Shown: in pieces, positions 24,161 through 49,539 of the stretch | How positions within the stretch are numbered: the stretch's first letter is position 1 | Layout: every line of letters starts with the position of its first letter | Assembly: GCF_003368325.1 (NCBI RefSeq) | Contig: NZ_CP031468.1 | Coordinates: forward strand, 110,592 to 174,591 | From: Paraburkholderia caffeinilytica | GTDB lineage: Bacteria; Pseudomonadota; Gammaproteobacteria; Burkholderiales; Burkholderiaceae | Reading direction: 5' to 3' | DNA length: 64,000 bases | The notes under the pieces: generated by a model | The model's input: only the letters and a program-made list of their open reading frames with translations | What the model was told of the DNA's origin: nothing | The model's database searches: none | Program-made: the position numbers and the translations under genes

Positions 24161-24186
24161 CGGAATGGTGCGCTCTCGAAAATGGT

Positions 24187-24684: not shown

Positions 24685-24716
24685 GTCGAGTAGGAGGTAA
24701 AGATTCGTGCAGATGC

Positions 24717-24818: not shown

Positions 24819-25181
24819 AGCGGCATGGAAATCCCAGCAGCTCGCCCTTCCCAGTCCAAAAAAACGCTCACAAGAAGGCGCCCAAACGGCGCGACGCACT
24901 GCGCTACAGCATTCGGCGGATACCTCGCTATCGCTGGTGTGTGCCTTCTTCAGCTCATCTAGAGAAAGCCATCTGATTAATTTCCGGAGAACCTCTAACG
25001 TTTTTCGTTTGCATGAAAAACACATCCGGATGAATTACGTAAGATCAACCGCACGCAATTGGTAATCTTGTTTTCACGAACTTTTTTAGATATTTCTTAA
25101 ACCGTTCCGCCTGATAGCAAAAAGCTCTAATTAAACTAAATTCCAGCTTGACATTCTTTTGATGGAAATAATGGAATCAAC

Positions 25182-26057: not shown

Positions 26058-26115
26058 TTCTTTGGCTTCGCCGTCGCCCTCCGACCCTTCTCAGATCCGA
26101 GGGCAACCCTACTTT

Positions 26116-27636: not shown

Positions 27637-28052
27637 CTATCGCTCCCAAGGTAAACTTGCCTATTGCGTTGATTTTCCGACCTGGGATCAGCTTTAATCC
27701 TGGGGAAAGGCGACATGCATCCGACAACGCATCGAATGAACAGGTTACCGACCTTGCTCCGCTGTGGGTATCAAAAATCGGCAATGTATTCGCCCCAGTT
27801 TCGGCGCGGCTGCATCGGCGTTCCCCCGATTTGTGTCGGTTTGTGGGCAGTCTCTTCTATGCGAGGAAACAGCTCCGTCCTGTCGTTCTGTTCGCAGCAG
27901 CGGACACATAAATTGAGGTCCAGTGCAATCCAGCATCATGTTCGTCGAAATCAGCAAAGTGGGGGTTTAAGCACGTAGTCCATTGTCTGTCTAAGAGCAC
28001 ACGTGGGAGAGACGAGCCACGAAGGCGGATATAGTACGGATTCCTCATGATA
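27637..28052. other. Promoter-side gap of the aldehyde dehydrogenase
   Basis: 416 bp between two minus-strand features. I looked for a -24/-12 sigma54 promoter before exaC and found no good match. Nothing else seen. Confidence 0.3.
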
Positions 28053-28430
28053 CTACCGGACTACAGCTGCTGGCTTTGCGCTGTCCCCATCAGCCGATTC
28101 AATCGAGCACGCCCGATCGCCGCGGCGAACGAGTCTACGCACCCAAGGCGCAACTGCACCACGATGGCCCCCGGAAGCGGCGCGCACGTTGAAGGCAGCA
28201 GTGTATGCATGTTCGAGTAGTGCGGCGGCCTGATCGAGCAGCACGCGGCCAGCAGCGTTGGGGCGCAGTGGCCTCATCTCACAATCGAATAGAGCTCCGC
28301 CATGTTCCACTTCGAGGGATTTGCTGGACTGGCTGATCGCGCCTTCCGCCCCCAAGCGCACGCGCGGCTTCGATCATCGACGCTGCTTCGCAAACGATGA
28401 CAAACGCATGCAAGGCCCGCAGATCGGCGA
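28053..28430 (-). pseudogene. LysR-family regulator pseudogene (frameshifted)
   Basis: Three successive minus-strand frames give a recognisable LysR N-terminal half: DLRALHAFVIVCEAASMIEAAR, then after a shift near 28345 GAISQSSKSLEVEHGGALFD and GRVLLDQAAALLEHAYTAAF, then after a second shift near 28150 LRLGCVDSFAAAIGRARLNR. The rest of the effector domain is missing. Confidence 0.75.
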
Positions 28431-28729
28431 ATGGCGTGATCCCCCGCATGGCACCAAGGCAATTGTGTTATACCGCGCTCACCTAATTCGAACGGATGTT
28501 TGGGCGGAAGGAGGTCCGCGCGGCACCAGATCGAATGACGCATGAAGCGAAAAAGTTGCGATTAATATTCGTCGTCATACGGCTTACTTTGAATGACCAC
28601 GATATGGCCCCAGTGCCTCTTTCGTGCGTATCGTCACGCGCGTTTTTTTGGCGAGGTACACTGATGTCCAAAGCGGTGTAGAAACAGAAATTGCATCCGC
28701 AAACCGCATTCGAATGAGGATGCCGGGCC

Positions 28730-29725
28730 ATGGCAACGAATGATTTTCCAATCTCTTCCGAAAGCGCATTTGGCACCGAGTCGATCTCGGCGTCGGTGAC
28801 GCATGCCCTTGCTGCGGATGTCTTTGAGCAAGCCGACAATTTGCCGGAATGGCGCCAGTCGTACTGGCAGTTGACCAACGGCAGGTTTGCTGGGGAGACG
28901 TGGTCGGTGAGCACCGCAGGGATGCAGATCTTTCGAGAACAAATGAACCGCTCTGTCGATCAGCATGGCGAAGCGCCCGTCGGACGTTTAGTTGTCGGCG
29001 TCGGCAATCGCTTGATCGGTGAAGGGTTTTGGGGCGGCCGAGGTCTTCATCAGGACAGCGTGTTGCTGCTGACTGACGGCGCTGAGCTTACTTTCAAGAC
29101 GCCCACAGAATCCGACTTTTCGTTTATGACCGTTAGCCAAGAATTGCTCGGCGAATCGTGTTCGTCAGTCGAACTGGAGTCGCTTGAGAAGGTATTGAGG
29201 GTTCGGCCGGCGGCAGAGCGTGTATCGCCAGTTCACGCCGCGAAGCTGCGGACGATGCTCCTCCTCGCGTTGGACGGGACGGTAGACAAGCACGCGTGCG
29301 CCTTTGATTTACTGGCCAGTGACCTTTGCCTTGCGGCGCTTGCCGCGCTGGGTACGCCCAGCGTCGAACGCGTAGCACGGACCACCCAACGCGTTCACCG
29401 ATACATCGTCAACGCCGTTCGCGACCGCATTCTCGCCGACCCCGGCAGCCCGCCTACTGTGAGCCAGCTTTGCATTCAGCTGAACATTAGTCAGCGCAGC
29501 CTGCACCATGCATTCCATCAGGTGCTGGACATCAGCCCAGTCAAGTATCTCCGAACGGTTCGCCTGCATCTTGCGCGACGCGCTCTACGCGCATCGCCGC
29601 CCGCGCCGGGACGCATTCAGCAGGTCGCACTCGACTGCGGCTTTTGGCACCTCGGCATGTTCGCCAAGCAGTACTTTGAACTGTTCGGCGAATTGCCATC
29701 CAAAACATTGCTGTTGCCGCATTGA
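28730..29725 (+). CDS. AraC-family transcriptional regulator (EutR-like)
   Basis: 331 aa. The C-terminal AraC/XylS domain (about 225-330) has two HTHs: PPTVSQLCIQLNISQRSLHHAFH and GRIQQVALDCGFWHLGMFAKQY, then YFELFGELPSK. The N-terminal 200 residues are a sensing domain like that of EutR. The ethanolamine-type permease and amine oxidase nearby are its likely targets, with an amine as effector; that is inferred from context. Confidence 0.87.
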   Translation: MATNDFPISSESAFGTESISASVTHALAADVFEQADNLPEWRQSYWQLTNGRFAGETWSVSTAGMQIFREQMNRSVDQHGEAPVGRLVVGVGNRLIGEGFWGGRGLHQDSVLLLTDGAELTFKTPTESDFSFMTVSQELLGESCSSVELESLEKVLRVRPAAERVSPVHAAKLRTMLLLALDGTVDKHACAFDLLASDLCLAALAALGTPSVERVARTTQRVHRYIVNAVRDRILADPGSPPTVSQLCIQLNISQRSLHHAFHQVLDISPVKYLRTVRLHLARRALRASPPAPGRIQQVALDCGFWHLGMFAKQYFELFGELPSKTLLLPH

Positions 29726-30530
29726 GATGCCATTGCGGCAACGCGCCCGATTGCACGATTTTCCAATCCTTAACTGTTGCTCCTTGACACGCTGTATTGC
29801 GAGCATAGTTGAGGCCGTGCCAGCCAGCAGTAAACAGGTAAAGCCCGCCCGCGAGCCGTTGATCCGCGCTCCACGACAGCGAATGAACGAGTATCCACGC
29901 AATGCCGCCGAGAGACGGGCGTGCAGCAGAGCGGCATAGCGCCATGTCGAATGCATAGAGCGGCGAGGAAAGGCATAGTTCGAGACCGAGGATTGCGACC
30001 GGGGTCACGCAAAGCATCCAGAAGAGCGCCGATCGCGTTGCAAATGGTCTTTGATTGCGAAAAGCTAGGACAAGCCACGTCCCGCTAAGCAGCATCGAAG
30101 CGCTCATTGCTGAAAGCACGACGGCGCTCCTCATCGCGAGTGCATGCACGACCGGGATCATCCACACGACGCTGATAGTAGCGAAGGCCAACGCGGCAAG
30201 CGTGCTCCATAGTTTCACGTATGTGCTGCAATTCGCGTGGCCTGCGTCGCCCTCTGCATCCATTGCCCCGGCAGAACATGCTCCAGAGAAAACGAGGCTG
30301 GGTACAACGTGGTGAAGCAACACGCTTTGGACTGCATGAATCCAAAGCGCTTGTCGCGCGAACTCGTTGACGACGCCACACTGCGCAATCAGCAGCAAAA
30401 GCGCTCCACATACGACGCGCCCGTGCGGCCTGAACGAGAGTCGACGCATGTTCGAACGCCGTTGTGGAGTCAGCAGCTCCCACCGGGCTGACACTCCCGT
30501 GAGGACACGGCTTTGATTTAGAACAGGCAT
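29541..30530 (-). CDS. CtaG/caa3-assembly-like integral membrane protein, 3' end doubtful
   Basis: About 329 aa by open frame. Residues about 30-255 have 6-7 hydrophobic segments and resemble cytochrome c oxidase assembly factor CtaG-like proteins: HAVQSVLLHHVVPSL, SVVWMIPVVHALAMRSAVV and WSADQRLAGGLYLF (compare DQqlAG in that family). The last 70 residues are Arg-rich and overlap the 3' end of the AraC gene by 185 bp on the opposite strand, so the true stop was probably lost. ATG 30530 has GGAGAG 4 nt upstream. May be a pseudogene. Confidence 0.5.
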   Translation of the reverse strand: MPVLNQSRVLTGVSARWELLTPQRRSNMRRLSFRPHGRVVCGALLLLIAQCGVVNEFARQALWIHAVQSVLLHHVVPSLVFSGACSAGAMDAEGDAGHANCSTYVKLWSTLAALAFATISVVWMIPVVHALAMRSAVVLSAMSASMLLSGTWLVLAFRNQRPFATRSALFWMLCVTPVAILGLELCLSSPLYAFDMALCRSAARPSLGGIAWILVHSLSWSADQRLAGGLYLFTAGWHGLNYARNTACQGATVKDWKIVQSGALPQWHLNAATAMFWMAIRRTVQSTAWRTCRGAKSRSRVRPAECVPARAAMRVERVAQDAGEPFGDT

Positions 30531-30560
30531 TCGACTCTCCACGCAAGTGCTCTGCGCCCC

Positions 30561-32540
30561 TTATTTCGCACTATGGCAGCAACTCGAACCGCTCCCGCCA
30601 CTTGCGCTAACACTCTTGCTATCTTTGCCACCCGGCAGATCCATTGCAGGGTTGGCTGCAAAGAAGTTATTCGGCTTGAGCTTGAAACCGACATACTCGA
30701 CCGGCATCACCGGGAAATCTTCGGGCTTGCAGATATGGGTGTGGCCGAAGGTATGCCAGAGAACGAGATCCTGGTTCTCAATGCTGCGATTCTGCTTTAC
30801 ATAGGCAGGAAGCCCATCGCCGCCCTTGTGCTGGTTCGGATATTCCCCCGAACCGTACCGCTCGCCCGGAGAGTAACGCGTGACCCACACATGCTTCGAT
30901 GCAAAGCCGGCCCGTTGATGGAAATAGCTTCCGGGCTGCGCAAGCATGACGGGATTCTGCTCGGCGACAAGCTTGTAGCCTGGATGATTCCCGGCGGCAT
31001 TGCGCACGTTGGGGTTGATAATCTTCCAGAAACGTCCGGTTTGCCCGTTCGCTTCGCGGCAGGCGTCGAGCTCGTTCTTGAACGTCGTCGTCACTGCGTC
31101 GAAGACATTTCCATAGCGGTTCCCTTCCCCGACCGGTCTCGGATGGAAGTCTGTCTCCACCACTGAATTCTGCTCGCCGTCGACCATCATGTGCAAACGC
31201 GCGCTGAAGAAGTGCTGGTGGCTAGGTCCGTATATATCCGCGGCGACCTTTCCGCCGTTCTGAACCTCTCCGGGTACAAGCGCAGCCGTCTGGATGATGC
31301 CGGTCAGCTTCGCCTCGAGCTGGATCGTGCCGTCCTGGTAGAGGTACCAGAAGAAGCCATAGTCGTAGTTGGCGACCGTACAGAAGAAACTGATAACAAG
31401 GCGCCGCGAGCGACGCATTTCGAAGACGCCGGTGCGAAACTCATAATGCTTCCAGAGCGTGCCGTAATCTTCCTCGTGCATGCAAATGGCATTCTTCATG
31501 ACGAATGCCTCACCCAGATCGTTTACCGCGGGCACGTCGAAATAACGGATCGCGCCGAGGCAGTCACAGCCAAGCTCGAGCGAATTAGCGAGTCGGCCGA
31601 GTCCATATTCGCCGCCGTCGAAAGCGCATTTCCAGAAGTGATTGAGTTCGTCGCTCGAATATGGCACGCCCATGTCGGTCACGCTCGCGCGATAGATAAT
31701 CGGCCTGACCTCCTCGCCATCGTGGTAACTGAGGTTATGAAGCACAAGGCCCTCGCGCGGCGTGAAGCCTACGCGGAAGTCCCAGTTTTGCCATGACACT
31801 CTCCAGCCGTCCACCGAGAATGTCACACCTTCGGGCTGCGTGATGTGCAGGGGCTTCAAGCCGTCGCGAGGCGCGCCGAGCGACGGCGTATCGTAGTTGC
31901 GTTTTGTCTTCGGGATCGGTACGTTGCGACCGTCGTCAAGCAGGTCGATAACCTTTTCCTCGTTCAGATCGATGATCGCGACCAGACCTTCAATCGGGTG
32001 CGCGTAGCCGTTGTCGGTGATGACATCACGGTAGAACGCGACTCCGCGCATCAGGCGGCGACCGCGATAACGCTCCTCATCGCCGAAGTAGCCAAAGGAC
32101 CATGGATCGATCTGCACGTTGGCAATGTCCTCATCGGTCAAACCACGCCGCTTCACCGCAGCCCGCCATTCGGGATCTTCCTGAACTATCTTCACGCAGA
32201 GGTCGAATTCCTCCACCATGATCGGCGCCTGACCCGTAACTTCTGTATCGAGCGCGCGCCAGGATACAACCTCCGCTACGCGGAGATCAACGAGCGACTC
32301 GTAGGTTGCCCCGGTCGCCTTATCGAGTACGAGCACAAAAGCTTTACGCGAATACGGCATGCCGGGCTTGAATGCCAGCACTTCGCTTTTACTGGGCTCA
32401 TCGAGATAAACATACGGAAAACGGCATCGTGGACCAAGTGCTTTCGCGTCCCTCACGATTTTGCATGCCGCTTCGATCTCGGCAATCGACAAGGGATCAA
32501 GAGGATGTGCGCTAAGCACCGCGCTGTGATCGTTCTTCAT
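30561..32540 (-). CDS. tynA: Copper-containing primary-amine oxidase
   Basis: 659 aa, the size of bacterial Cu/topaquinone amine oxidases, which convert R-CH2-NH2 to aldehyde, ammonia and H2O2. The TPQ precursor Tyr is in VANYDYGFFWYLYQDGTIQL (about residue 393). The copper His-X-His is HQHFFSARLHM (about 442) and a third His is near HTFGHTHICKPEDFPVMP. NAICMHEEDYGTLWKH is another family block. The sequence resembles the phenylethylamine/tyramine oxidase branch. No obvious signal peptide, so a cytoplasmic enzyme. Downstream of an amine/ethanolamine permease on the same strand. Confidence 0.92.
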   Translation of the reverse strand: MKNDHSAVLSAHPLDPLSIAEIEAACKIVRDAKALGPRCRFPYVYLDEPSKSEVLAFKPGMPYSRKAFVLVLDKATGATYESLVDLRVAEVVSWRALDTEVTGQAPIMVEEFDLCVKIVQEDPEWRAAVKRRGLTDEDIANVQIDPWSFGYFGDEERYRGRRLMRGVAFYRDVITDNGYAHPIEGLVAIIDLNEEKVIDLLDDGRNVPIPKTKRNYDTPSLGAPRDGLKPLHITQPEGVTFSVDGWRVSWQNWDFRVGFTPREGLVLHNLSYHDGEEVRPIIYRASVTDMGVPYSSDELNHFWKCAFDGGEYGLGRLANSLELGCDCLGAIRYFDVPAVNDLGEAFVMKNAICMHEEDYGTLWKHYEFRTGVFEMRRSRRLVISFFCTVANYDYGFFWYLYQDGTIQLEAKLTGIIQTAALVPGEVQNGGKVAADIYGPSHQHFFSARLHMMVDGEQNSVVETDFHPRPVGEGNRYGNVFDAVTTTFKNELDACREANGQTGRFWKIINPNVRNAAGNHPGYKLVAEQNPVMLAQPGSYFHQRAGFASKHVWVTRYSPGERYGSGEYPNQHKGGDGLPAYVKQNRSIENQDLVLWHTFGHTHICKPEDFPVMPVEYVGFKLKPNNFFAANPAMDLPGGKDSKSVSASGGSGSSCCHSAK

Positions 32541-32667
32541 TGAGGGACCTTCAATGTCTGGGTTGGCGGCTGCGTAGAGCCGATAGATTCATTGTTAGCG
32601 GAGCAAATTTGCGTGGATATCAAGTTTCAGCAAGACTCGCCGGGCAACAAGGTAGGGGCGCCGGAAG

Positions 32668-34050
32668 TCAATCGCCCTGTAGCGACGCGAGCGAGGGAGC
32701 CTCTTCGTGCACGCGCTGGTCGCGTGTGAAGTGGTAGTACAAATAGAAGATGCCCATCATGACGAGATACAGCCCCGAAAGCATCGCGTTGTAGTACAGC
32801 ATCGTGACAAGGCACACGACCGCGAGACACAGCGCAAGAGCCGGAAAGAGCGGATAGGCGATCGCGCGATATGGGCGGTTCAGATCAGGCTCGCGACGGC
32901 GCAGCGCAAAGAGACTGGCCATCGACACGATGTACATCGTGATAGCGCCGAGCACCGACAACGTGACGATGTTGGCCGTTAGCGTCTGGCCACCGAACGT
33001 GACGAGCGAGTCGCTGAAAATGGCTGCGATGCCGACCACACCACCGGCGAGAATCGCCCGATGGGGCGTATGGAACCGCGGATGCACGGCTGACAGCCAC
33101 CGGGGCAAGTAACCTTCACGGGCCATTGCAAAAACGCAGCGTGAGTAGCCCAGAATGATGCCGTGGAACGACGCCACGAGACCAAACAGGCCGAGCCACA
33201 CGAGCATGTGTAACCAGTTGCTGTGATTACCGACTACCGCCTTCATTGCTTGCGGAAGCGGGTCGTTGATATTCGCGAGCACACGCCAGTCGCCGACTCC
33301 GCCTGCAAACATCATCACGCCAATGGCAAGCACGAGCAGCGTCAGAATGCCCGTGATGTACGCGACGGGAATCGTACGAGTCGGGTTCTTCGCTTCCTCC
33401 GCAGCCATTGCCACGCCTTCGATAGCGAGAAAGAACCAGATCGCGAAAGGCACCGCCGCGAACAGACCCGGCACCACACCGAGCGAGAAATGATCGTGAC
33501 CGGCCCAGCCATGCGCCACGAAATTAGCGACCGAAAATCCGGGCGACACGACGCCCATGAAAACCAGCAATTCGATGATCGCGAGTATCGTCACGATCAA
33601 TTCGAAGGTTGCCGCCATGCGCACGCCAAGGATGTTCAAACCCATGAAAACGACGTAAGCACCGACGGCCATCCACTTCGGATCGACGCTGGGAAACTGG
33701 ACATTGAGATAGGCGCCGATCGCCATCGCGATTGCAGGCGGTGCAAACACGAATTCGATCAGCGTCGCAAAGCCGGCAATGAACCCGATTCTCGGGCCGA
33801 ACGCGCGCCGGGCGTATGCGAAGGGGCCACCCGCGTTTGGAATAGAGGTGGTGAGTTCCGTGAAGCTGAAAATGAAGGTCGTGTACATCACCGCGACGAC
33901 GACGGAGGTAACGATGAATCCAAGGGTACCCGCGGCAGACCAGCCGTAGCTCCACCCAAAGTATTCGCCAGCGATGACAAGGCCGACAGCTAGGCCCCAA
34001 AGGTGCCACGCATTAAGCGTTGGCTGAAGGGATTGGTTCGACGGTTGCAT
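32668..34050 (-). CDS. eat: Ethanolamine permease-type APC transporter
   Basis: 460 aa, about 12 spans. QPTLNAWHLWGLAVGLVIAG and EYFGWSYGWSAAGTLGF are the signature start of the Eat (ethanolamine permease) family; FLAIEGVAMAAEEAKNPTR and RAILAGGVVGIAAIFSD follow. ATG 34050 is used because the upstream extension is not hydrophobic or conserved. No ethanolamine ammonia-lyase (eutBC) is present here. With the amine oxidase downstream (128 bp) it may import an arylalkylamine or monoamine instead. Confidence 0.88.
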   Translation of the reverse strand: MQPSNQSLQPTLNAWHLWGLAVGLVIAGEYFGWSYGWSAAGTLGFIVTSVVVAVMYTTFIFSFTELTTSIPNAGGPFAYARRAFGPRIGFIAGFATLIEFVFAPPAIAMAIGAYLNVQFPSVDPKWMAVGAYVVFMGLNILGVRMAATFELIVTILAIIELLVFMGVVSPGFSVANFVAHGWAGHDHFSLGVVPGLFAAVPFAIWFFLAIEGVAMAAEEAKNPTRTIPVAYITGILTLLVLAIGVMMFAGGVGDWRVLANINDPLPQAMKAVVGNHSNWLHMLVWLGLFGLVASFHGIILGYSRCVFAMAREGYLPRWLSAVHPRFHTPHRAILAGGVVGIAAIFSDSLVTFGGQTLTANIVTLSVLGAITMYIVSMASLFALRRREPDLNRPYRAIAYPLFPALALCLAVVCLVTMLYYNAMLSGLYLVMMGIFYLYYHFTRDQRVHEEAPSLASLQGD

Positions 34051-34328
34051 GTTGGGCTCGTCAAGTTGGTGGGTGAGCGCCCAATTTATGCAGCCGAAAT
34101 TTCTGCACCTATCTGGAATCAGCAAGACATGCGACGTTTCCGGAATGAAACCTCCTTCCGGCATCCATCCGCATTCTCTTTGTTTGGATTTCGTAATGTT
34201 AATGACAGCATTGTGCTTTTACGGGGGGCGAGCAGCCACCGGGCCGGCGAGCCCTCCAGTGCTAACAATCTTGGGTACCCAGACATGTCAGGCGAGTTGT
34301 CGCCTCACCCGAACTGATTGGTGTTGCC

Positions 34329-34828
34329 GTTCGTCAATTCTGCTAATGATGTCCGTTGGAGCGCTAATCGTGCCCATTAATTCTGCTAGCGCGGCTTTTT
34401 CTACCGCAACGCGAACTCACTGCCCGGCACGACTGACAAAGCGCAGGACGACGCCGTGCTGACCAACATCCACACAAGGGGATGTTGAAGGCCCCCGATG
34501 TGACACACAAAGTGCCGTACTGTATGGCGTTTTTGATCTGCGCACTGAGATGGGCACCTTCCGAAGATCAAAAAAATGACCTCCGATATTTACACTTGCT
34601 GCCGCTTCAAGCGAATGCACCTATCGCGCTCCTCTACAACCGTACTAGCCGAATTAGCGGACACGACAAACGCGTTAGCAAAATCAACGGACATCCGAGC
34701 GTGCGTGTGTTGCTGAAACGCAACGCCTAGAAAAGCGTGCGAAACCGCCGCTATGCCTTGTTTTGCAGGGCCAAAATGCAGTCTTACATTAGCGTAATCT
34801 ATGGACACGATTAGCAGTTTTTAAGGAC
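34329..34828. repeat. Inverted array of seven ~20-bp repeats
   Basis: Consensus GTCCGTTAATTCTGCTAACG. Forward copies at 34329-34348, 34351-34370 and 34372-34391 (period 21-22 bp). Reverse-complement copies at 34643-34662, 34673-34692, 34787-34806 and 34809-34828 (period 22-30 in pairs). Individual copies match the consensus at 14-18 of 20 positions by eye. The two groups face each other around about 250 bp with no gene I can support. Spacing of two helical turns is typical of sites for a DNA-binding recombinase or regulator. Confidence 0.6.
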
Positions 34829-34864
34829 TTCAACACATACCGCCCGTTTTGCACTAATGCACGA

Positions 34865-37324
34865 TTACTCGCGCTCGTCGTAGACAATGGTGAGTTCGGC
34901 CTCTTCATTGCCGCGGTAGATACGCCGCGTCCGATCGTTGACGGAAACGACGTTGAATCCCTCCCCGCGTGCGTGGAGAATTCTCCCCGCCAATTTTCGC
35001 AAGTCTTTGTCTTTTACAGCTTCGATGACCCGGGCGGCAGACAGTGACAAACGGCTCTCAACCCTTGACGCTGCCCCGATTTCCTCGCTGAACGGCGATA
35101 GTGCCAATTGCATCTCGGCGTCATAGGCAGGCTTGATGTACTTGCCGGTCACATAGGCATGCAGCAACAGGCAGGCTCGCTGGACATCGACCTGCACAAC
35201 GACCCCATCCCTCACGTTTGTCGACTTTCGCACCCATTTACTAAGTAGCTCCTCGAGCGGGCCGTAGCGCTGACTCGCGATGGTCAGCGACTTGTCAACG
35301 TCATCGGTTTCGCGAACTCGTTGCGCAATTCGAACGATAAGTGCCGCCAAAAACGCTTTGGTCGCCGCTGTGTCTCCGTTGTGGGCCATGCGCAGCAGAC
35401 ACAGCGCAGCTAGCGCAGATGTCTCCTTGTCAAACCGAAGTACGGCGTAGGCTAGGGTGTTAATCGTGTCGGCGCGCGACAGCGGCCAATCAGCACGATC
35501 CTCATGTGCGATACCGACAATAGCGATGTGCGCGGGCGAGCAACTGGATGACCTCGCCGTCGCGGCGATTTCCTTTACAAGCGCAGCGTCCGATTGGAAA
35601 TAGCGAAGGTAGTCTATGGTGAGCGGCCCTTCGCAGGCGCTCAGCGTTTCGAACCAGCTCGCGAGATGGCTTTGGTCCGGCGCAGCGTCGAGGAAACTGC
35701 GAATGTCCGGCGTGATGGCGGAACTCATGAGGACGTGTTGATCCGGCGTAAGCCGGACAGTGCGCAGACGGTCGGCAACAAGAAACTCCTGAAATGAGCG
35801 GTGTGCAAAGTACAGGATGCCCGCTTCCTTCTCTTCGGTCAGACTCGACACGATGTATTCGGTCAGTTTGGCCGCCCCATCAGTCGCATCGCCATCCGGC
35901 AACTGATCGACGAGGGCTTGAGGGATCTCGTCTCGGTTGAAGTAACCCTGACCATCACTTGCTTTCGTCCAGGACCACCACCCCAGTTCCTTCTGAAACG
36001 AATACCTTGCCTCGAGGGGGATAACCCCGCGTGCACGCTTCTCCTCCGTATCGCGCGCGATCAATTGCCTGATGAACTGGTCGTACAACGTGTAGCTGGT
36101 GAAGCCATCGAGCCTGAAATTCGGATCATAGGCCAGCTCAGCGACGATCCTTGCTTGCACCGGGCGCCGGAGAAGGTCAGGGCTAACCTTTAAGATGACT
36201 TCCCGCACACGCAGATCGACGAATTCGGTCACAGTCACGCCGTTAACGTGCGTCAGATGTCTCAGCAAATGTCCGAGGTACGCACGCAAGAACCGTTCAA
36301 TCTCCTCGGCATTGAAGAAGGCAATCTCCTCCTCGCGCCACGGCGCAAACTGAGGATCATTTACCGTTTGCGATCCAACGCGTCGCTGGCCGCGGAGCAC
36401 ATGCGTACGCGCCTCGGTTGGCAGTGCGTTCGGACGGCCGAGCAGCAGTACTCTTGCCTTCGGCCCGAGCAGGCGATTGAACTCCCTAAACGTGGCATGA
36501 AAGTCCGCGACTGACATCGCGTGCTTCATCTCGTCAAATCCGTCAAGGACGACGAACAGCCGCCCCTCGGCATTCAGATGCATGAGCGTGTGAAACCGAA
36601 AGTCCGTCGCGGGAAAGCGGGCCGTGAACTCCTTTCCGAAGAGAGCCTCGAGCTGTGTCTCGTGTACCACCTGTCCCAACCGAATGAGGATTGGGATGCG
36701 TTCAGCGGGATCCGCACGGTGTCGCGCAGCCTGCTGCGAGACGACCCGCAGCGCGAGGCTCGTCTTGCCTTTTCCATATCCCCCAAGGATGGCCAGCGGC
36801 ATTGGATCGTCGGATCGCATCCAATCTTCGATAACGGCTAGTGCGGGTTTTTCGTGTCCCTCGAAACGGGCGTCCACGTAATAGCTTTCCAGATCGCTGG
36901 CTTTGAACGTACCAGCGAGCTGTGTCACATAGTCGTTCAACCCGATCAGGCTGTCCTCGAACTGCTCGTACGTCTGGAACCTCAGTGACGGTATTCCGTC
37001 GACATACGCACGCGCCATCGCGTTAATGTCCTTCCTGGCAACGATGATGACAATATCTAGCTCGTGTTTGTCGACGAGCGGGTCGTAGTCCGACCAGATC
37101 CTCGTTCGGATATCATCCTTTGTAAGCGGAGCTGCTTCGTTCTTACATTCGACGCCGACGGTGATCCGCCGGCCAAACTCGACGTACGTGTAGACCACGT
37201 CGACCTTCTTATGGCCAACTAGGACTTCCGTCCGGACATCGGAATATTTCGTGCGCAGGAGGCTCGCAACGGCGTCGCGAAAAGCGTTGCCGACTTCCGT
37301 TGTATTGGCAGGGTTAGCGCGCAT
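34865..37324 (-). CDS. NACHT NTPase with N-terminal PD-(D/E)XK nuclease-like domain (candidate antiphage NLR)
   Basis: 819 aa, single gene. Residues 1-135 look like a restriction-endonuclease-like (Mrr/RE-alpha) fold: VDVVYTYVEFGRRITVGVECKN supplies D42, E59 and K61. The NACHT core begins at LAILGGYGKGKTSLA (Walker A, 181-189), and Walker B is LFVVLDGFDEM (256-266), with the extra acidic residue typical of NACHT. LLLGRPNALPTEAR may be sensor 1. ILYFAHRSFQEFLVADRL (503-520) is the winged-helix FxHxSFQEFLAA motif. The remaining 300 residues are helical and presumably the sensor. Known bacterial NACHT proteins abort phage infection; a role here is inferred. Confidence 0.82.
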   Translation of the reverse strand: MRANPANTTEVGNAFRDAVASLLRTKYSDVRTEVLVGHKKVDVVYTYVEFGRRITVGVECKNEAAPLTKDDIRTRIWSDYDPLVDKHELDIVIIVARKDINAMARAYVDGIPSLRFQTYEQFEDSLIGLNDYVTQLAGTFKASDLESYYVDARFEGHEKPALAVIEDWMRSDDPMPLAILGGYGKGKTSLALRVVSQQAARHRADPAERIPILIRLGQVVHETQLEALFGKEFTARFPATDFRFHTLMHLNAEGRLFVVLDGFDEMKHAMSVADFHATFREFNRLLGPKARVLLLGRPNALPTEARTHVLRGQRRVGSQTVNDPQFAPWREEEIAFFNAEEIERFLRAYLGHLLRHLTHVNGVTVTEFVDLRVREVILKVSPDLLRRPVQARIVAELAYDPNFRLDGFTSYTLYDQFIRQLIARDTEEKRARGVIPLEARYSFQKELGWWSWTKASDGQGYFNRDEIPQALVDQLPDGDATDGAAKLTEYIVSSLTEEKEAGILYFAHRSFQEFLVADRLRTVRLTPDQHVLMSSAITPDIRSFLDAAPDQSHLASWFETLSACEGPLTIDYLRYFQSDAALVKEIAATARSSSCSPAHIAIVGIAHEDRADWPLSRADTINTLAYAVLRFDKETSALAALCLLRMAHNGDTAATKAFLAALIVRIAQRVRETDDVDKSLTIASQRYGPLEELLSKWVRKSTNVRDGVVVQVDVQRACLLLHAYVTGKYIKPAYDAEMQLALSPFSEEIGAASRVESRLSLSAARVIEAVKDKDLRKLAGRILHARGEGFNVVSVNDRTRRIYRGNEEAELTIVYDERE

Positions 37325-37629
37325 CGTAGTGTTCTCAGTTTGTCTTCACTGTCGTCGCGACGCGCATGGCCGCGTCGCGACGTCGGACCGCCCATGGCAG
37401 TTTCATCGCGAAATGCTGGGCGCCGCGCTCCCGCAAATTGTTCCATTTGTCGGTGTTAACGAATGTCCTGCCCCTTCGTATCAAACGACTCGATCATCGC
37501 GCGCTGCCCACGCGCTCAGGCCTTCTGCCAGACGCGGCCGTTCTCTACCGTCACGATCTGCGGCAGCGATTTGGCCGGCAACGCTACCGTCGGCACGTAT
37601 CTTATCTAGCCGACGACGTGTGCCCGGTC

Positions 37630-37908
37630 TCATCCGCCGTTCACCGCATCCTTGAAAGCCTTGCCCGCGGTGAACTTGACCGTCTTCGCGGCCGGAATCT
37701 GGATCTCGGCGCCGGTTGCCGGATTGCGGCCGACCCGTGCGGCGCGCGCGCCTACCGAGAACGAGCCGAATCCGATCAGCTGTACCGTTTTGCCCTTCGT
37801 CAGTTCGCCTGTGATGGCCGCGATCACCGCGTCGATCGTCTCGCCCGTGGCGACCTTGCTGTCGCCCGTCTTCGCGGCCACGGCATCGACCAGCTCCTGC
37901 TTGTTCAT
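37630..37908 (-). CDS. hup: HU-type DNA-binding protein
   Basis: 92 aa. [50 protein letters not shown] (the DNA-binding arm) and [14 protein letters not shown] make this a clear HU. ATG 37908 has AGAGGA 7 nt upstream; the longer open frame upstream is rejected. HU binds and bends DNA without sequence preference; a plasmid copy may compact the replicon or help the initiator. Confidence 0.95.
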
Positions 37909-39191
37909 GGCTATTCCTCTTGATGGTTGTTGACTGCGCCACCGTACCCGATCGGTGCCGGGTCGCGCAATGGCCGCACTGTTTCTTTGGCATCGCAGGT
38001 AGCCCGTGCACTGGCTCTCCGCCCGCCTCCCGTTTCTTCTCACCTCAACAGCAACGTTCCCATCCGCGTGGGATTCCGTCGCGTGCCGGGCGATGAAGCC
38101 CAGCGCGCGCAAGTGTGCCGTTTCGTCAGTCGCCGGACAGTTTGCGACCAGCAGCTGGCTTTCATTGCTGGCTCGCGTCATCCCAATGCTGCCTGGCGCC
38201 TCCACACCCGGCGCCTGAACGCATCTGAACAGTCGCTCACGGTAACAAAATTAGTTGTGTGCGCGGTAGCACATCACCCATAAAAATTGGGGACATATCA
38301 ATGGCAGTTTTGATAACTGCTACAAGCAATACTGCATTTAATGACCTGAATCCATCGATAGTCAGTCAAACCTCCAGCCTGTCGCCCCTCACCGACGTGT
38401 CTGTCGCAGGGTCGTTGAATCGCTTGGGCGAACTTTGCACGTGCAAAGTTCGGCGCACCTGAGCAAAGGTGAACGTCTATGGTTCCGCTTCCAGCTTTCC
38501 AGACCGGACGCCGGTTTCCGACGGCACCAACCGCCGGGGCGCCCAGCCTGCCGGGCTCCGGCTGTTGCGGTGCTCTCTGCGGCGCACGGGCGTGCCGTGT
38601 GACCTTCTGGCGCATCACGTCAATGCGGTCACCCGCTAGCCGACTTCTTCACCGGGCCCGGTTGCGTGCCATGGCAAGTGTGGGCCATCGCATAAGGGAC
38701 GCCCGCAGCGTGGCCTTGAGGTGAAACCCCAGCGGCAATTCCGGAACTTGGGCCCGTGTCCACAAATGAAGGGGTAGATAGCCCTAAACTATCTACCCCT
38801 TCATTTCACTCATGCAACCGGCTACGTTCGTAGCGGCCTTTACAGGTTTGATGTCGGCCGACGTAGGCGCGGTCCGTTAGTTGCTTTTACGAATAAAAAA
38901 GCAGCAACCTTCGCTGGTCGCTGGCTGGCGCAGATTCGGCTATTCGGAGGGCCATACCGAACCCGAAAGAGGACAACAGTTTGCGCGATCCTCCGCTAAT
39001 GATCGTGCGAGTACGCACGACTCATACCCTGTTTTATCGGTATCGCCAGCGCGGGCTGCCGGCGTCAGGTAACGAGCGCTTATACTCGGCCCATGTTGAC
39101 CTCGCGAATGCCCACGCCGGGCGCGACCGCAATCGGGCCGTCGCGATCGATGTGTGCAAGCTCGTTCATTTTCTTCGCTCAGGTTGATGGT
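37909..39191. other. 1.28-kb region without a firm gene
   Basis: Between HU and the relaxase. A plus-strand frame at 38479-38724 (81 aa, Arg-rich) looks vaguely like short hypothetical entries seen in Burkholderia, but has no ribosome-binding site, so I do not call it. The only strong structure is the 18-bp hairpin at 38764-38806. Confidence 0.4.
38764..38806. repeat. Perfect 18-bp inverted repeat with 7-nt loop
   Basis: AAATGAAGGGGTAGATAG (38764-38781), loop CCCTAAA, then CTATCTACCCCTTCATTT (38789-38806): 18 of 18 pairs. There is no gene ending close by and no T-tract after it, so it is not an ordinary terminator. Confidence 0.7.
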
Positions 39192-42100
39192 TCATCGGTC
39201 AATATCCGGCCCGCTGTCCGGTGCATCCGGATCAGCTGGCGGTGCTACATCCAAGTCGGGATTGGACGGATCTTCCGGGGTGGGTGGCGGCGGATTGCGC
39301 ACAACATCGCGCAGCTCGTCACGCTCCCATGCCTCGCGCTCACGCTGCGCCGCCCGACGTTCCAGCGCTTCGGAATCGAGCTCCGCAAGCCGGACCTGCC
39401 GGATGCTCTCCAGCTCCGGTTGCTCGAACACGATGCGCATACGCGTGTCGGCCGCCACACGCGCCGCGGCCGCCTGGAAGTCATCAGGTCCGGACAGCGA
39501 CAGCGTGCTGCCGAACTTCTGCTGCGCGAAACGCAGCGCAATCTCGATCGCCTCGCGCTCGCTATCCCACAGGCGCAACGTGCGGCCCTCGTCGACGAGG
39601 AACGCCACACCGTCCTTCCGGTAGTCGACCTCGCCGCTGGCCCGCACCTCGTACGTGATCGCCGGGCCCGCGTAGATGATCTCGTTGCGGTCGTAGGCTG
39701 CCGGTCGGTTCACCGCATGAGACGGCGCACTGAAAATGACCGCGCGTTCGTCGTCTGCACGTTTCGTCCGCAGGAGGATCTGCTGCATCCGGCGCAACTC
39801 ACGCAGCGCCCGTTCGTCGCCTTCCTGAGCGCGCTCCTGAAGGAAGTCACGATACCGCTCGGTCAAGGGCCGGCTTGCGGCGCCCTTCAGCGCATCCCGC
39901 TCTTTCGCGATCTGCACACGCAGCGCAGCCTCTGCCTCAAGGCGCGCAACACGTGCCGCGGAAAGCTGCTCGCGGCGCTGCGCACCTGACAGGTCCATGC
40001 GCGGGCGTTCAACCAGCGCGCTACGGGCACTGTAGAACTCGGATTTGACCGCCTTTCGCCGCTCACTCTCATGATCGGCCTGCGCATCCCACGCGCGACG
40101 TAGCTCGTTCCGGTATGCCGATCGCCATTGCTGGAACTCGCCCCATAGGTCCCGTTCAGGCGCACGCCTCTGTGCATGCTCCGGATCACGTCCTGTCTGT
40201 GCACGATAGGTCTCGCGCAGCAGCTCAGCCGCCTCCTCCCATGACAGGTTCATCTCCTTGGTGAGGAAGTCAGACACATTCAGATTGCGCGAGCCGGCCT
40301 GGATCCTGTCACCGCCGTCCGCGCCTTTACCGATCGAATACTTTTCGACGATCACTCCGTGCGTATGCGCGAGCACGGCCAGCAACCGGCCCGCGTCGAG
40401 CGTCGCGCGAATCTCTGTGAACTCATCCCGCTCCCGGGCACGTCGCACCGTGCGAGCCTCGGACAGGTCACGCGCAAACTGGTCGCAAACGGTATCGGCT
40501 GCCCGGCCCGTCGATGCGCGCGCACCTGCATTGAAATCGACCGACGCCGCGTCCGTCGGCAGCGGCGTATCAGTTGGCCGGATCTCGAACGGCAGCGATT
40601 CGATCGCATCGAACGATTGCACATCCGCGAGGCTGCGGATTTCCTCACGCGGTCCGAACCCTGCAGGCAGGCCGCCGCCGCTCAGACCAAAAGGCTCGCG
40701 TGAGCCGAACGGTCCTCCTGCCCGCATGAACTTCCCGGCAGCGGTGCGGGTGAGACGCGTCCGCCCTGCCTCGTCGGCCTGGTCCCACGCGACAAACATG
40801 CGATCTACGATCGCTTTCCATTCAGGCTCGCCGGCGGAACTGTCAATGGCATCGGGTTCGCCCGACCATTGCCACCGATCCTCGAACTCGCCGTAATTGC
40901 GGCCCACGTCGAAACCGCCCTCGGCACCTTCGCGCCATCGCGGCAGTGGCACCGAAATGACTAGCTGTTCTCTTCCCGCTCGCTCGCGATCGCCAGACCA
41001 TCGCAGTGCGTCAATTCGTTCGGCTTGCTGGTTTCCCAGCTCCAGTAATGCATCAGCCGGCAGAAGCACTTGACGTCGCGCGGCGTCGCCATCCACACCG
41101 CGGCCGGGCATGCCATGCACACGGTGGGCGGATTGGGACGGCGCGCCGGATCGATCGAAGCGAGCGTCAAAGTCGTGATCCGCTCCGGCTCGCCATCGCC
41201 CCGTGATTTCGCGGTGCGCGCGTTCGAGCTCGTTCCACCATTGCTGCGACTGCCCTGTCCTTTCCGGTTCCCGCCCGGCACCGCGCTCTCGCGCCCGCCC
41301 TCCTGCTCCGGCGGCTCCCATCCGCTTCCAATCTCGCCAGTGTCCGGATCGATCGTGGCGCTGTTGTGTTCGCTCTCGTGTGCGTTCATTAAGCCCTCCT
41401 GTTGCGTCATAGAACCGCTGTTCGCGGTGATCGAGAATGCGCCGCTGCTCCGCCGGCGGCGCTGCCTGATACGTCTTGTAAAAACTGCTGCCGCTGTTCA
41501 GATACTTGATCTCTCTCGCGCGCGTGTCGTGCCACGTCTCGAGCGAATCGAGATAGATCCGCGGCGTATCGCGCGGTACGCCTGGCTCGACGTACTGCGC
41601 ATGCACATTCGATTCGAGCGCCTCACGCTTGGCCGTAGCATCGAGCTCGATGAACTCGCGCGAAAACACGAACTCCTTCAGGTTCACACCCTTCGCGGCA
41701 CCGGGCGGTTTGACGTTCTCGTACTCCGACTCCCTGCCGGCATTGCGTGTGCGCGTCTCGCCGTACTCCGTGATCAAGGCCCTGAAGTCGTCATACCGGG
41801 TCACATCACGCGTCATCACTGCCTCAAGAATCGAGGCCTTCAGCTCGCGGTTAGCGCCCTCGAACACATCGCCCTTGTACCGGCTGATCATTTCGGACGC
41901 GTCCGTGAACTGCACACGCCGGTTGTCCTTTGGGCTCGCCAGTCCGTACTTCGCGTTAATGTGCTCCTGAAAAGCCTCCAGATACCGCTCGTTATGGTCA
42001 ACCTTCCCGAACGGATCAAGCCGTCTGCCCGTTACCAGATTCATTTCCGGGATCACCACATGCACGTGAACCTTGCGCTCGACAGCCTCGCCCGTCTTGC

Positions 42101-42434
42101 GGTCCGCATAGCTCTTGATCCGCGGCACATGCGCTTCGGCGTAGAAGTTGTATTCGTCCCGACGGTATGCGGCAAACGCAAACGCCTCGAACTCGCGCAC
42201 GATCTCACCCAGCAGCTCGCGGTCGACCTCGTCTTCCTTGAAAGACAGCGTGACATTCAGGTAGCGTTCAGCGTCCGTGTCGATCGACTGGATGATGTCG
42301 TTCGTCAGATCGAGATCGCCGGCGAGTATCACGCGCTCGTCCATCTCGTCGCGTTCCATTTCGCGACCCTGCTTCTGGCCCTTCTCCAGGTATGCCTTGA
42401 TCCCGTCGTGATAGCCGCGTACGCGTATGAGCAT
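39192..42434 (-). CDS. Relaxase (MobA/TraI type) with C-terminal LPD7-like domain
   Basis: 1080 aa open frame. Residues 1-250 form the HUH relaxase domain: Y8 in RVRGYHDG is a candidate nicking Tyr, and KVHVHVVIPEMN (121-132) supplies two metal-ligand His residues, with H102 a possible third. Residues about 930-1020 (IIYAGPAITYEVRASGEVDY, AIEIALRFAQQKFGSTLSLS) resemble the LPD7 domain often fused to relaxases. It would nick at oriT and lead the strand into a recipient. Upstream on the same strand are MobC and two small genes. Residues about 348-491 lie over a second gene in another frame and look compositionally poor there. Confidence 0.8.
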   Translation of the reverse strand: MLIRVRGYHDGIKAYLEKGQKQGREMERDEMDERVILAGDLDLTNDIIQSIDTDAERYLNVTLSFKEDEVDRELLGEIVREFEAFAFAAYRRDEYNFYAEAHVPRIKSYADRKTGEAVERKVHVHVVIPEMNLVTGRRLDPFGKVDHNERYLEAFQEHINAKYGLASPKDNRRVQFTDASEMISRYKGDVFEGANRELKASILEAVMTRDVTRYDDFRALITEYGETRTRNAGRESEYENVKPPGAAKGVNLKEFVFSREFIELDATAKREALESNVHAQYVEPGVPRDTPRIYLDSLETWHDTRAREIKYLNSGSSFYKTYQAAPPAEQRRILDHREQRFYDATGGLNERTRERTQQRHDRSGHWRDWKRMGAAGAGGRARERGAGREPERTGQSQQWWNELERAHREITGRWRAGADHDFDARFDRSGAPSQSAHRVHGMPGRGVDGDAARRQVLLPADALLELGNQQAERIDALRWSGDRERAGREQLVISVPLPRWREGAEGGFDVGRNYGEFEDRWQWSGEPDAIDSSAGEPEWKAIVDRMFVAWDQADEAGRTRLTRTAAGKFMRAGGPFGSREPFGLSGGGLPAGFGPREEIRSLADVQSFDAIESLPFEIRPTDTPLPTDAASVDFNAGARASTGRAADTVCDQFARDLSEARTVRRARERDEFTEIRATLDAGRLLAVLAHTHGVIVEKYSIGKGADGGDRIQAGSRNLNVSDFLTKEMNLSWEEAAELLRETYRAQTGRDPEHAQRRAPERDLWGEFQQWRSAYRNELRRAWDAQADHESERRKAVKSEFYSARSALVERPRMDLSGAQRREQLSAARVARLEAEAALRVQIAKERDALKGAASRPLTERYRDFLQERAQEGDERALRELRRMQQILLRTKRADDERAVIFSAPSHAVNRPAAYDRNEIIYAGPAITYEVRASGEVDYRKDGVAFLVDEGRTLRLWDSEREAIEIALRFAQQKFGSTLSLSGPDDFQAAAARVAADTRMRIVFEQPELESIRQVRLAELDSEALERRAAQREREAWERDELRDVVRNPPPPTPEDPSNPDLDVAPPADPDAPDSGPDIDR
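40961..41389 (-). CDS. Cys-rich conjugation-associated protein nested inside the relaxase gene
   Basis: 142 aa, read in the +1 frame relative to the relaxase on the same strand. It has an excellent ribosome-binding site, AGGAGG 5 nt before ATG 41389. The C-terminal part reads TVCMACPAAVWMATPRDVKCF and CRLMHYWSWETSKPNELTHCDG, a CxxCP...C.C...C pattern that I associate with small proteins in plasmid and ICE transfer regions. Third codon positions here are mostly G/C, as in the neighbouring genes. Function unknown; a zinc-binding fold is plausible. Confidence 0.65.
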   Translation of the reverse strand: MNAHESEHNSATIDPDTGEIGSGWEPPEQEGGRESAVPGGNRKGQGSRSNGGTSSNARTAKSRGDGEPERITTLTLASIDPARRPNPPTVCMACPAAVWMATPRDVKCFCRLMHYWSWETSKPNELTHCDGLAIASEREENS

Positions 42435-42438
42435 CGTC

Positions 42439-42672
42439 CTACTCCAGCATCCCGCGCTCGGCGAGCCAGCGCTCAGCCCCTTCGATGCGCAAAAGCAGCG
42501 TGCTGTTCACGATCGACAGCAGCAGATGGCCAGCGGCATCGACAGCCGCCCGGGCGCTGTCGCAGTCCGGCTGCGTCAGCGTACGCGCACCGTCATGGTC
42601 GCGATCGAAGTGCAGCTTCGTCTCCAGCTCGATGACCGCCATGATGGCGGCCTGCTTTTGATCCATTCCCAT
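42439..42672 (-). CDS. Small mob-operon protein, unknown
   Basis: 77 aa, squeezed between mobC (5-bp gap) and the relaxase (4-bp gap), so surely cotranscribed and probably coupled in translation. It is mostly helical by eye: QKQAAIMAVIELETKLHFDRD, ARAAVDAAGHLLLSIVNSTLL. I do not recognise it. Confidence 0.65.
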   Translation of the reverse strand: MGMDQKQAAIMAVIELETKLHFDRDHDGARTLTQPDCDSARAAVDAAGHLLLSIVNSTLLLRIEGAERWLAERGMLE

Positions 42673-42677
42673 CGATA

Positions 42678-43043
42678 TCAGTCGACCTTGTTCAGGGTTG
42701 CCTTGAGGTACTGCCCGATGAGCTGCAATTGCGCGAGCAGTTGCTCGTAGGTCGCCTCCGAAAGCTTCCCGCGAACGTGCTCCGAGTTCGCGCGGTGGGC
42801 AATCTGGTTCAGGTTGTTGCTGGTCTTGTTGAAGATGTACAGCAACCGCTTGCGGTCTCCGCTCGCCACCGGGCGCGCAATCACCTGCGTACGGTTGGTG
42901 AGCACCGCCTGCCTGAAAAACTCTGATTGCGTCATCCCGCTTTGCGCCACCTTGGCAAGGTACGCTGCGCGATCCGCATCCGACAGACGGAACGCGATCG
43001 GCTTGCCCAGCCCTGCCCCGTCATTGCTCTTCTGCCGTGGCAT
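42678..43043 (-). CDS. mobC: Relaxosome accessory protein MobC-like
   Basis: 121 aa. FRLSDADRAAYLAKVAQSGMTQSEFFRQAVLTNRT has the ribbon-helix-helix look of MobC/TraJ-type proteins; RLLYIFNKTSNNLNQIAHRANSE is the classic MobC C-terminal motif (ln.l.NQiA...N). It binds near oriT and helps the relaxase. Its start overlaps the stop of the preceding small gene (TAATG). Confidence 0.87.
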   Translation of the reverse strand: MPRQKSNDGAGLGKPIAFRLSDADRAAYLAKVAQSGMTQSEFFRQAVLTNRTQVIARPVASGDRKRLLYIFNKTSNNLNQIAHRANSEHVRGKLSEATYEQLLAQLQLIGQYLKATLNKVD

Positions 43044-43300
43044 TACCAGAGCCCCGTCGAACGACTACGGTCGATCTCGGCGCCGACCATCGCGAACGGC
43101 CTGCCGTCGTCCTCGATCGGATGCGCGCGAAACTCGTATTCCGGCCACCGCAACTCGCACTCGCGCAGCGCGCGCATTGCCTGGTCACCCGTCATTGGCA
43201 ACGTATAGCCTGCCCACGGCAGATAACGCGGCTCGCTGCCGCGCTCGTCGGCACGCGGCCCCACTACAAGCTGGATCACCCATTCACTGCTCGGAATCAT
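43043..43300 (-). CDS. Hypothetical protein, first gene of the mob operon
   Basis: 85 aa from ATG 43300 (MIPSSEWVIQLVVGPRADERG). The stop overlaps the mobC start by one base, so it belongs to the same transcript. No family recognised. An ATG nine codons earlier is possible. Confidence 0.6.
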   Translation of the reverse strand: MIPSSEWVIQLVVGPRADERGSEPRYLPWAGYTLPMTGDQAMRALRECELRWPEYEFRAHPIEDDGRPFAMVGAEIDRSRSTGLW

Positions 43301-43398
43301 CGCCAGACCTCCGTATTCATTACGCATACCAGGCAGTGCTTAGTGTCAGTAACGGAGTTGCCGACACGCGGACGCGGCAATAGACCGCGGCGGGGTTT

Positions 43399-43455
43399 CA
43401 AAGGGGCCCGCCCCTTTGGCACGAAATATTTTACGGAACGCGTAGCGTTACGTAA
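43399..43455. other. Candidate oriT region with two inverted repeats
   Basis: Between the divergent mob operon (start 43300) and the 43633 gene. CAAAGGGGC/GCCCCTTTG (43399-43407/43410-43418) is a perfect 9-bp dyad. TTACGGAACGC/GCGTTACGTAA (43431-43441/43445-43455) is an 11-bp dyad with one mismatch. A dyad beside mobC and the relaxase, in an otherwise empty 330-bp intergenic stretch, is where oriT is expected. The nick site cannot be placed. Confidence 0.45.
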
Positions 43456-43632
43456 ACATATTCGACGTGCCTCGCCCCGCTCTTGCCACACATTATTTCC
43501 TACGCATATTCTACGCCCCTACTACACCAGTACATCACGCATTGCGTGGGAGTACTACCCAATACAACCTTGCCCCTACATGCTGTCGTCATTCATACTA
43601 CGTCCATACTACATTTATTCGCCATTTCCCCA

Positions 43633-44154
43633 ATGGATCACGAACAACTTGCTTCCGCGCTGCGCCGCCTTGCCAGCACAAGCCCGAAACGCAGTAAAGC
43701 TTCCCATCTCAAGGCCCTCCTTCCGGACATTGAGGCGGCGCTCGCCGCTCGCGTTCCCGCCGCTGATATCCTGAATACCTTGCGCGAACAGGGACTCGAT
43801 ATCTCCCTTCGGACGTTTCACGGAACCCTGTACAGGCTTCGAAAGATCACCTCTCCGCCCGATTCCGGCAGCAAATCCGGCGCTGCGGCAGCCCGCCCCA
43901 GCGCCCCGCCCCCCGTTACAGCCTCCCGAGCGACAGCCCCTCTCGAAACGCACAAGCCTACCCCTCCCACGACCGATGCACCGGCACCGGCACAGACTCG
44001 CATCAAAACCTTCGAGCAATTGCAGTCTGAGAATCCCCACCTCTCAAGCATGCAGTTGAACCGCCTCTACGCCGAACAGTACGGCGAACCTCGCGTGAGC
44101 AATGCCGATATTGATGCACTCAAGAAAAAATACCCTCAGCACGCGAAACCCTGA
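43633..44154 (+). CDS. Hypothetical plasmid protein divergent from mob operon
   Basis: 173 aa. Residues 1-75 (LASALRRLASTSPKRSKASH, ADILNTLREQGLDISLRTFH, GTLYRLRKI) look like a small helical HTH domain. A Pro/Ala/Thr-rich linker follows (about 80-125), then a second small domain KTFEQLQSENPHLSSMQLNR. The pattern resembles TraK/StbC-like oriT-side proteins, but the match is weak. The position opposite mobC favours a relaxosome or mob-regulator role. Confidence 0.55.
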   Translation: MDHEQLASALRRLASTSPKRSKASHLKALLPDIEAALAARVPAADILNTLREQGLDISLRTFHGTLYRLRKITSPPDSGSKSGAAAARPSAPPPVTASRATAPLETHKPTPPTTDAPAPAQTRIKTFEQLQSENPHLSSMQLNRLYAEQYGEPRVSNADIDALKKKYPQHAKP

Positions 44155-44376
44155 GCCGCATCGGCCCGCCGCACTGCGCCGGGTCGGGCCGCTCCCCATG
44201 CATCCTGCATGGGTCCCCGTGGCCCTCGATACGGGCGCGCGGCGCGCGCGATACCACCCTGGTTCGCACACGCAGTTACATTCTGTTTCGCAAAACGCGG
44301 CGCCTTCAGGCGTGCTCCTTGGCACAATCGCCCTGCCCCTGCCTAGTCCCCAAAGCCATGCGGTAGGAGCCTCGGA

Positions 44377-44406
44377 AAGCCGGTCTGCGTACCGGCTTCT
44401 TTTTTT
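44377..44406 (+). terminator. Rho-independent terminator
   Basis: AAGCCGGT-CTGCGT-ACCGGCTT (8-bp stem, 44377-44398), then CTTTTTTT. It is about 220 bp after the stop of the 43633 gene. Confidence 0.75.
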
Positions 44407-44426
44407 CCTGTGCAGAACCCGTAAAG

Positions 44427-44461
44427 CAAAAAGCCGCCCGGGCGTTCACCCGGACGGCGGC
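44427..44461 (-). terminator. Rho-independent terminator of the ParB-like gene
   Basis: Read on the minus strand: GCCGCCGTCCGGG, short loop, CCCGGGCGGC, then TTTTTGC. The stem has a small bulge. It is 38 bp after the stop of the minus-strand gene at 44499 and back to back with the plus-strand terminator, insulating the two units. Confidence 0.65.
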
Positions 44462-44498
44462 ATGTGACAACCCGCACTTACGCGAAGTGCATCACGGC

Positions 44499-46553: not shown

Positions 46554-46562
46554 TATGGATGC

Positions 46563-46767
46563 CTCCGGAAATGGGCCGCAGCGGAATGCCGGGCCACACT
46601 GATATGATAGGTCGAATTGCCCTTATAGCACGTAATTATTCGATTTATATTTTAAATTGATTTATCTTTATGATTGAAACATGGGATCGTTAAAATCTTG
46701 ATGTAACGGTCAATACGACCTAATATAAAAGCGTGGCCCGGCATTCCGCTGCGGCCCATTTCCGGAG
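46563..46767. promoter_or_regulatory. Divergent promoter region with 35-bp perfect inverted duplication
   Basis: 46563-46597 is the exact reverse complement of 46733-46767 (35 of 35). Similarity continues inwards, weaker, to about 46612 and 46716 (TAGGTCGAATTG against TAGGTCGTATTG). The outer ends contain the GGAG ribosome-binding sites of both divergent genes, so the two mRNAs start with nearly the same leader. The plus-strand promoter is good: TTGATG (46698-46703), 17 bp, TAATAT (46721-46726). The centre is very AT-rich. Confidence 0.75.
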
Positions 46768-46773
46768 ATAACC

Positions 46774-47187: not shown

Positions 47188-47249
47188 CGCATTGACCACT
47201 CACGGCCCTAGCCTGTGGGCTGGGGCTGATCCTGATATTGGGGAACAGC

Positions 47250-49535: not shown

Positions 49536-49539
49536 CACC

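Follow-up and report, generated by a model that had tools for sequence, protein, structure and literature searches.

The 64,000-nucleotide stretch analysed here (the window) comes from contig C3 of the three-contig, 8.32-Mb genome of Paraburkholderia caffeinilytica. It holds a single gene for a protein with a predicted N-terminal Mrr-type nuclease domain, a central NACHT NTPase and a putative C-terminal sensor tail, here called the Mrr-NACHT protein. An identical gene, without a single nucleotide difference, is present in Paraburkholderia caffeinitolerans LMG 28688. The gene and the parts of its product are as follows.

34865..37324, minus strand: Mrr-NACHT protein gene, ATG start, 819 amino acids (aa), identified from the open reading frame (ORF), a Pfam NACHT match and an AlphaFold2 model
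36941..37306, minus strand: predicted N-terminal PD-(D/E)XK (Mrr_cat-type) nuclease domain, about aa 7-128 (Mrr_cat, invariant D42/E59/K61, match to 1y88)
37142..37150, minus strand: putative active-site ExK (E59-C60-K61), with its partner D42 at 37199-37201
35750..36964, minus strand: NACHT NTPase with helical and winged-helix subdomains, about aa 121-525
36758..36784, minus strand: Walker A motif GGYGKGKTS, aa 181-189 (K187 invariant)
36530..36559, minus strand: Walker B motif LFVVLDGFDE, aa 256-265 (D261, G262, F263, D264 and E265 invariant)
35768..35809, minus strand: winged-helix motif FAHRSFQEFLVADR, aa 506-519 (H508, R509, S510 and E513 invariant)
34868..35749, minus strand: C-terminal helical (armadillo/HEAT-like) tail, putative sensor, aa 526-819

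Domain organization of the Mrr-NACHT protein

Conservation was counted in 112 homologs of at least 740 aa, the eight shorter sequences among the 120 fetched being excluded. K61, K187 and D261 were kept in all 112, D42 in 111 and E59 in 110, and the invariant residues listed above refer to the same set. Because these residues are kept across the homologs, the named motifs are not chance occurrences; all of them are present as given in a preliminary description of this DNA, and the five single residues lie where it had placed them. Pfam NACHT matched the protein with E = 8.6e-8, above the Pfam cut-off, and was present in all of 60 diverse full-length members of the family. The AlphaFold2 model (mean predicted local distance difference test score, pLDDT, 89.6; predicted template modelling score 0.79) matched NOD2 over residues 121-590 and NLRP3 (7vtp_A) over residues 124-555, the core thus resembling that of the NLRs, the animal nucleotide-binding leucine-rich repeat receptors.

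The Mrr_cat profile was found at E ≤ 0.01 in 41 of the 60 diverse members and in 37 of 40 trimmed N-terminal domains. D42, E59 and K61 were invariant in the 40 aligned N-terminal domains, an alignment that excluded four domains lacking the D-ExK set as aligned (L037, L048, L052 and L053). Among the 44 loci with a long enough N-terminus, nine further loci being too short to score, 38 carried the full E33-D42-E59-K61 combination and two had Q at position 33. In a profile comparison, 1y88 (AF1548; E 0.025) was the only Protein Data Bank sequence that this domain matched sensibly. With high pLDDT, the whole-protein model places a helix at residues 8-24, strands at 31-36, 39-49 and 52-61, a second helix at 69-85 and a further strand at 91-96, which is the order expected for the PD-(D/E)XK fold. 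Profile, invariant active-site residues and predicted helix/strand order agree, and support the assignment of the N-terminus to the Mrr-like PD-(D/E)XK family, as its nuclease-like appearance had suggested in the preliminary description.

The C-terminal part forms a separate helical domain that diverges fast compared with the nuclease and the switch, and its resemblance to helical repeats of the armadillo/HEAT type is weak. Such repeats mostly bind proteins, and the tail, the least known part of the molecule, may be its sensor. With a NACHT module, an N-terminal effector domain and a putative C-terminal sensor, the Mrr-NACHT protein is of the bNACHT type by the features open to computation.

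Plasmid setting and distribution of the family

The gene lies on a plasmid, as the Rep3-type, ParA/ParB, antirestriction and relaxase-like genes of the window indicate. The immediate neighbours and the plasmid functions are listed below.

30561-32540: amine oxidase, neighbour
32668-34164: ethanolamine permease, neighbour
34321..34836, no strand assigned: non-coding stretch of about 500 bp directly 3' of the gene, with imperfect inverted ends (inverted repeats and plasmid matches)
37630 to about 37908: HU-like gene, neighbour
39192..42434, minus strand: relaxase-like LPD7 protein of the plasmid backbone (relaxase models match below curated cut-offs)
46774-47187: antirestriction protein
52855-54351, minus strand: Rep3_C replication protein
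55402-56793, plus strand: ParA-like partition gene
56775-57764, plus strand: ParB partition gene

Beginning at position 38785, the backbone shares 95% identity with a plasmid of Paraburkholderia sp. FT54; that plasmid carries a mobC gene beside its LPD7 gene and, near the junction, two tyrosine recombinases instead. A perfect 18-bp inverted repeat with a 7-bp loop (38764-38806) lies where this identity starts. The plasmid had previously been called mobilisable; its plasmid nature stands, and mobilisation is likely, although the relaxase-like protein falls below curated cut-offs and the FT54 plasmid is typed as non-mobilizable by MOB-suite.

With HU-like, ethanolamine permease and amine oxidase genes as neighbours, the Mrr-NACHT gene is here a lone gene outside any defence island. 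An apparent amine-degradation cargo extends beside it from 20665 to 34164 (amino-acid permease, aldehyde dehydrogenase, AraC-type regulator, primary amine oxidase and ethanolamine permease). On the other side, the listed ORF at 37630-38205 is too long; since the HU match begins at its residue 100, the HU-like protein, a plasmid-borne HU homolog of about 92 aa, probably starts at 37908.

The odd repeat array reported earlier beside the gene was not recovered: Tandem Repeats Finder returned no arrays in the whole window, and repeat searches of four stretches (34000-39500, 34200-34900, 37300-38900 and 42400-50500) yielded chance-like pairs of two and three copies plus three inverted structures. 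The stretch at 34321-34836 holds three copies of a TAGC...GGACA-type repeat, shares 84.8% identity with part of P. phytofirmans pOLGA2, has shorter, partial matches on two Burkholderia plasmids and an 89-bp match (73%) on contig C2 of its own genome, and is possibly the end or a relic of a mobile element. Between a ParB-like gene and the antirestriction gene lies a 74-nt inverted repeat (46549-46781; 82% complementary, arms 85 nt apart).

Relatives were found at 54 loci, which by their record titles fall into Alpha-, Beta- and Gammaproteobacteria, Bacteroidota and Micromonospora. Family members (E ≤ 1e-30) occur in 3 of 398 Burkholderiaceae genomes, the genome of origin included; 12 of 398 genomes of the phylum gave a match at E ≤ 1e-15, full-length in the genome of origin only, and in the class of G801 five of 369 genomes held a relative, a count that includes G801 itself, chosen as a known holder. 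Among 72,556 plasmid records 14 matched the protein, six of them over at least 60% of its length and none over 80%. Phage records gave no match to the query and IMG/VR contigs gave four.

Four annotated plasmid relatives were inspected. Site-specific recombinase genes directly adjoin those of Bosea and Azospirillum; on the Azospirillum argentinense plasmid (L076) a SIR2-family gene directly precedes the NACHT gene, a tyrosine recombinase directly follows it, and TniB/TniQ genes lie nearby. The Rhizobium relative has a recombinase and a TniQ gene about 3 kb away, and the neighbours of the Phyllobacterium relative are listed as hypothetical genes only. PADLOC scans of the surroundings of relatives (4 kb to each side), including those of distant members, covered 324 ORFs in sets of 95, 92 and 137. 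Among the matches listed were Avs2, GajA, AbiLi, BilD, AriA and capP in the 95-ORF set, SIR2, HerA, ShosA and ShosT in the 92-ORF set, and a CBASS cyclase, a 4TM effector, capP and a type II restriction pair in the 137-ORF set. Direct scans found the restriction pair at locus L007 and the cyclase at L009; of the eight other proteins scanned, four gave weak matches only and four gave none. The control comprised 132 ORFs from 14 regions of the genomes of the first (137-ORF) set; its listed matches included PD-T4-6 (kinase) models, probably all from one protein, a DEDDh protein and similar broad families. Because the family is so rare in genomes and its relatives lie close to known defence genes, it is not a housekeeping chromosomal STAND family.

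Comparison with known systems

The combination of nuclease and NACHT, which the preliminary description had singled out for testing, is not new: it is already in print as bNACHT25 and bNACHT32, so that the Mrr-NACHT protein joins an already known kind. These two members of bNACHT clade 6 were tested in E. coli and are reported to act on phages (PMC12169576). As described there, they too are single proteins with an N-terminal PD-(D/E)XK nuclease, a central NACHT and a C-terminal helical part. Their catalytic Asp lies close to residue 45 (D48, against D42 in the present protein), and the NACHT/winged-helix part again includes a His (H506, against H508 in the present protein, an equivalence proposed without alignment); bNACHT25 H506L is hyperactive (PMC12169576). 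The PD-(D/E)XK effector of clade 6 is present here as judged by family and predicted active site, and the likeness is one of described features rather than of compared sequences. An NCH1 C-terminal domain is given for both proteins in the same source, whereas no NCH-named Pfam family matched the query (E ≤ 1) or was among 22 families of the 60 members (E ≤ 0.01), in a library whose inclusion of the NCH1 model is unconfirmed.

Similarities to other systems are confined to parts of the protein. Avs proteins combine a STAND NTPase core with an N-terminal effector that is often a nuclease, Avs4 (8dgf) is among the Foldseek matches of the model, and Avs2 is encoded near one relative. Membership in Avs1-5 nevertheless found no backing, since none of the PADLOC Avs models matched the query at E ≤ 1 while the same library detects Avs2 in another protein; the 8dgf chains also exceed 1500 residues, against 819 here. 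NOD2 and NLRP3 have a NACHT, helical and winged-helix core of the same fold, at 16-19% identity in the fold-match rows, but carry CARD or PYD domains in place of the nuclease and leucine-rich repeats in place of the armadillo/HEAT-like tail. Mrr-like type IV restriction enzymes (Mrr_cat; 1y88, AF1548) resemble the N-terminal domain, which is fused here to an NLR-like switch. DS-8, shown to defend against phage (PMC13092281), likewise joins a NACHT switch to an N-terminal enzyme effector, in its case a metallophosphatase, the parallel being drawn from description and not from sequence.

Proposed function and alternatives

We consider the Mrr-NACHT protein to be a single-protein antiphage receptor of the bNACHT, NLR-related kind, with a probability of roughly 0.8. 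This reading is based on domain order, conserved active sites, an NLR-like core, a fast-diverging tail, patchy distribution and defence genes near relatives. It would most likely work as bNACHT25 and bNACHT32 do, with sensor tail, NACHT switch and DNase effector. At rest, the NACHT/winged-helix core would be ADP-bound and the nuclease kept inactive; detection by the tail of a phage-made molecule or an infection-disturbed host protein would lead to nucleotide exchange and oligomerisation, bringing together the PD-(D/E)XK domains, which would then cut DNA and stop phage growth, probably damaging the host's own DNA as well. Sensing, oligomerisation, DNA cutting and protection are extrapolated here from bNACHT25/32 and other NLRs.

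Several observations weigh against this assignment. On the query itself Mrr_cat stays below the Pfam cut-off (E 0.048 for the whole protein, 0.0034 for the trimmed domain), and the D-ExK set, as aligned, is not kept in the four excluded loci of the 44, distant members of which L037 and L048 are both from Micromonospora. The protein matched neither a PADLOC model (E ≤ 1) nor an NCBIfam model, and it is surrounded by metabolic and plasmid genes. The 137 proteins near relatives hit 70 PADLOC families and the 132 of the control hit 76, a count no higher near relatives, and mad8 and mad3 were alike (four and two against three and two). Relatives and control differ only in the kinds of gene, compared among the best 25 families per list with E-value limits that were not equal throughout, and the 95- and 92-ORF sets, the richest in systems, have no control from their own genomes; for these reasons the defence bias is shown in kind and not as a statistic. 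The defence-island bias named earlier as a test is seen, in kind, for the relatives, which lie near known defence genes; the window copy is not in a defence island. The candidate antiphage NLR reading is nonetheless supported: the N-terminus looks like a PD-(D/E)XK enzyme and the family is not a housekeeping one.

Defence against plasmids, other conjugative DNA or competing replicons, in which the tail would sense transfer proteins or DNA entering the cell and the nuclease would destroy that DNA, is the strongest of the alternatives, if an unlikely one. It would suit an effector that is a nuclease by family, the location on a plasmid that also has relaxase-like and antirestriction genes, and the matches among plasmid records, but the tested proteins of the same architecture act on phages (PMC12169576), and many antiphage systems are found near relatives. 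Still less probable is a plasmid-borne modification-dependent (type IV, Mrr-like) restriction enzyme whose NACHT part would be a motor or switch and whose C-terminal part would read modified DNA without protein sensing. Mrr enzymes do cut modified DNA and Mrr_cat membership fits, yet the core is NLR-like rather than that of a helicase, and the tail resembles, if weakly, repeats of a mostly protein-binding type. A regulatory or otherwise non-immune STAND NTPase is highly improbable: regulators such as MalT belong to this class (PMC10427625) and the window copy adjoins ethanolamine permease and amine oxidase genes, but the nuclease active site is conserved, the spread is patchy and no neighbour is widely shared (the commonest Pfam family, Phage_integrase, occurs four times among 137 neighbours of 17 loci).

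Returning to the antiphage receptor, we suggest, tentatively and at somewhat less than even odds, that this family, whose proteins are about 800 aa long and which occurs in both Proteobacteria and Bacteroidota but is rare per genome sample, is a separate bNACHT lineage that would sense phages through a hypervariable, faster-changing armadillo/HEAT-like tail. The well-defined single-gene family joins an Mrr-type nuclease to an NLR switch, and the natural variety of its tails could help to map the recognition targets of bacterial NLRs. bNACHT25, the best studied protein of the same architecture, is reported to sense infection via the host chaperone DnaJ (PMC12169576), and a set of natural tails would therefore test the generality of that route. 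The plasmid of P. caffeinilytica thus carries a gene whose product is laid out like the immune receptors of animals or plants: a predicted DNA-cutting head is joined to a switch driven by ATP and to a tail that changes fast. Most likely it is a phage-defence gene of a known bacterial kind.
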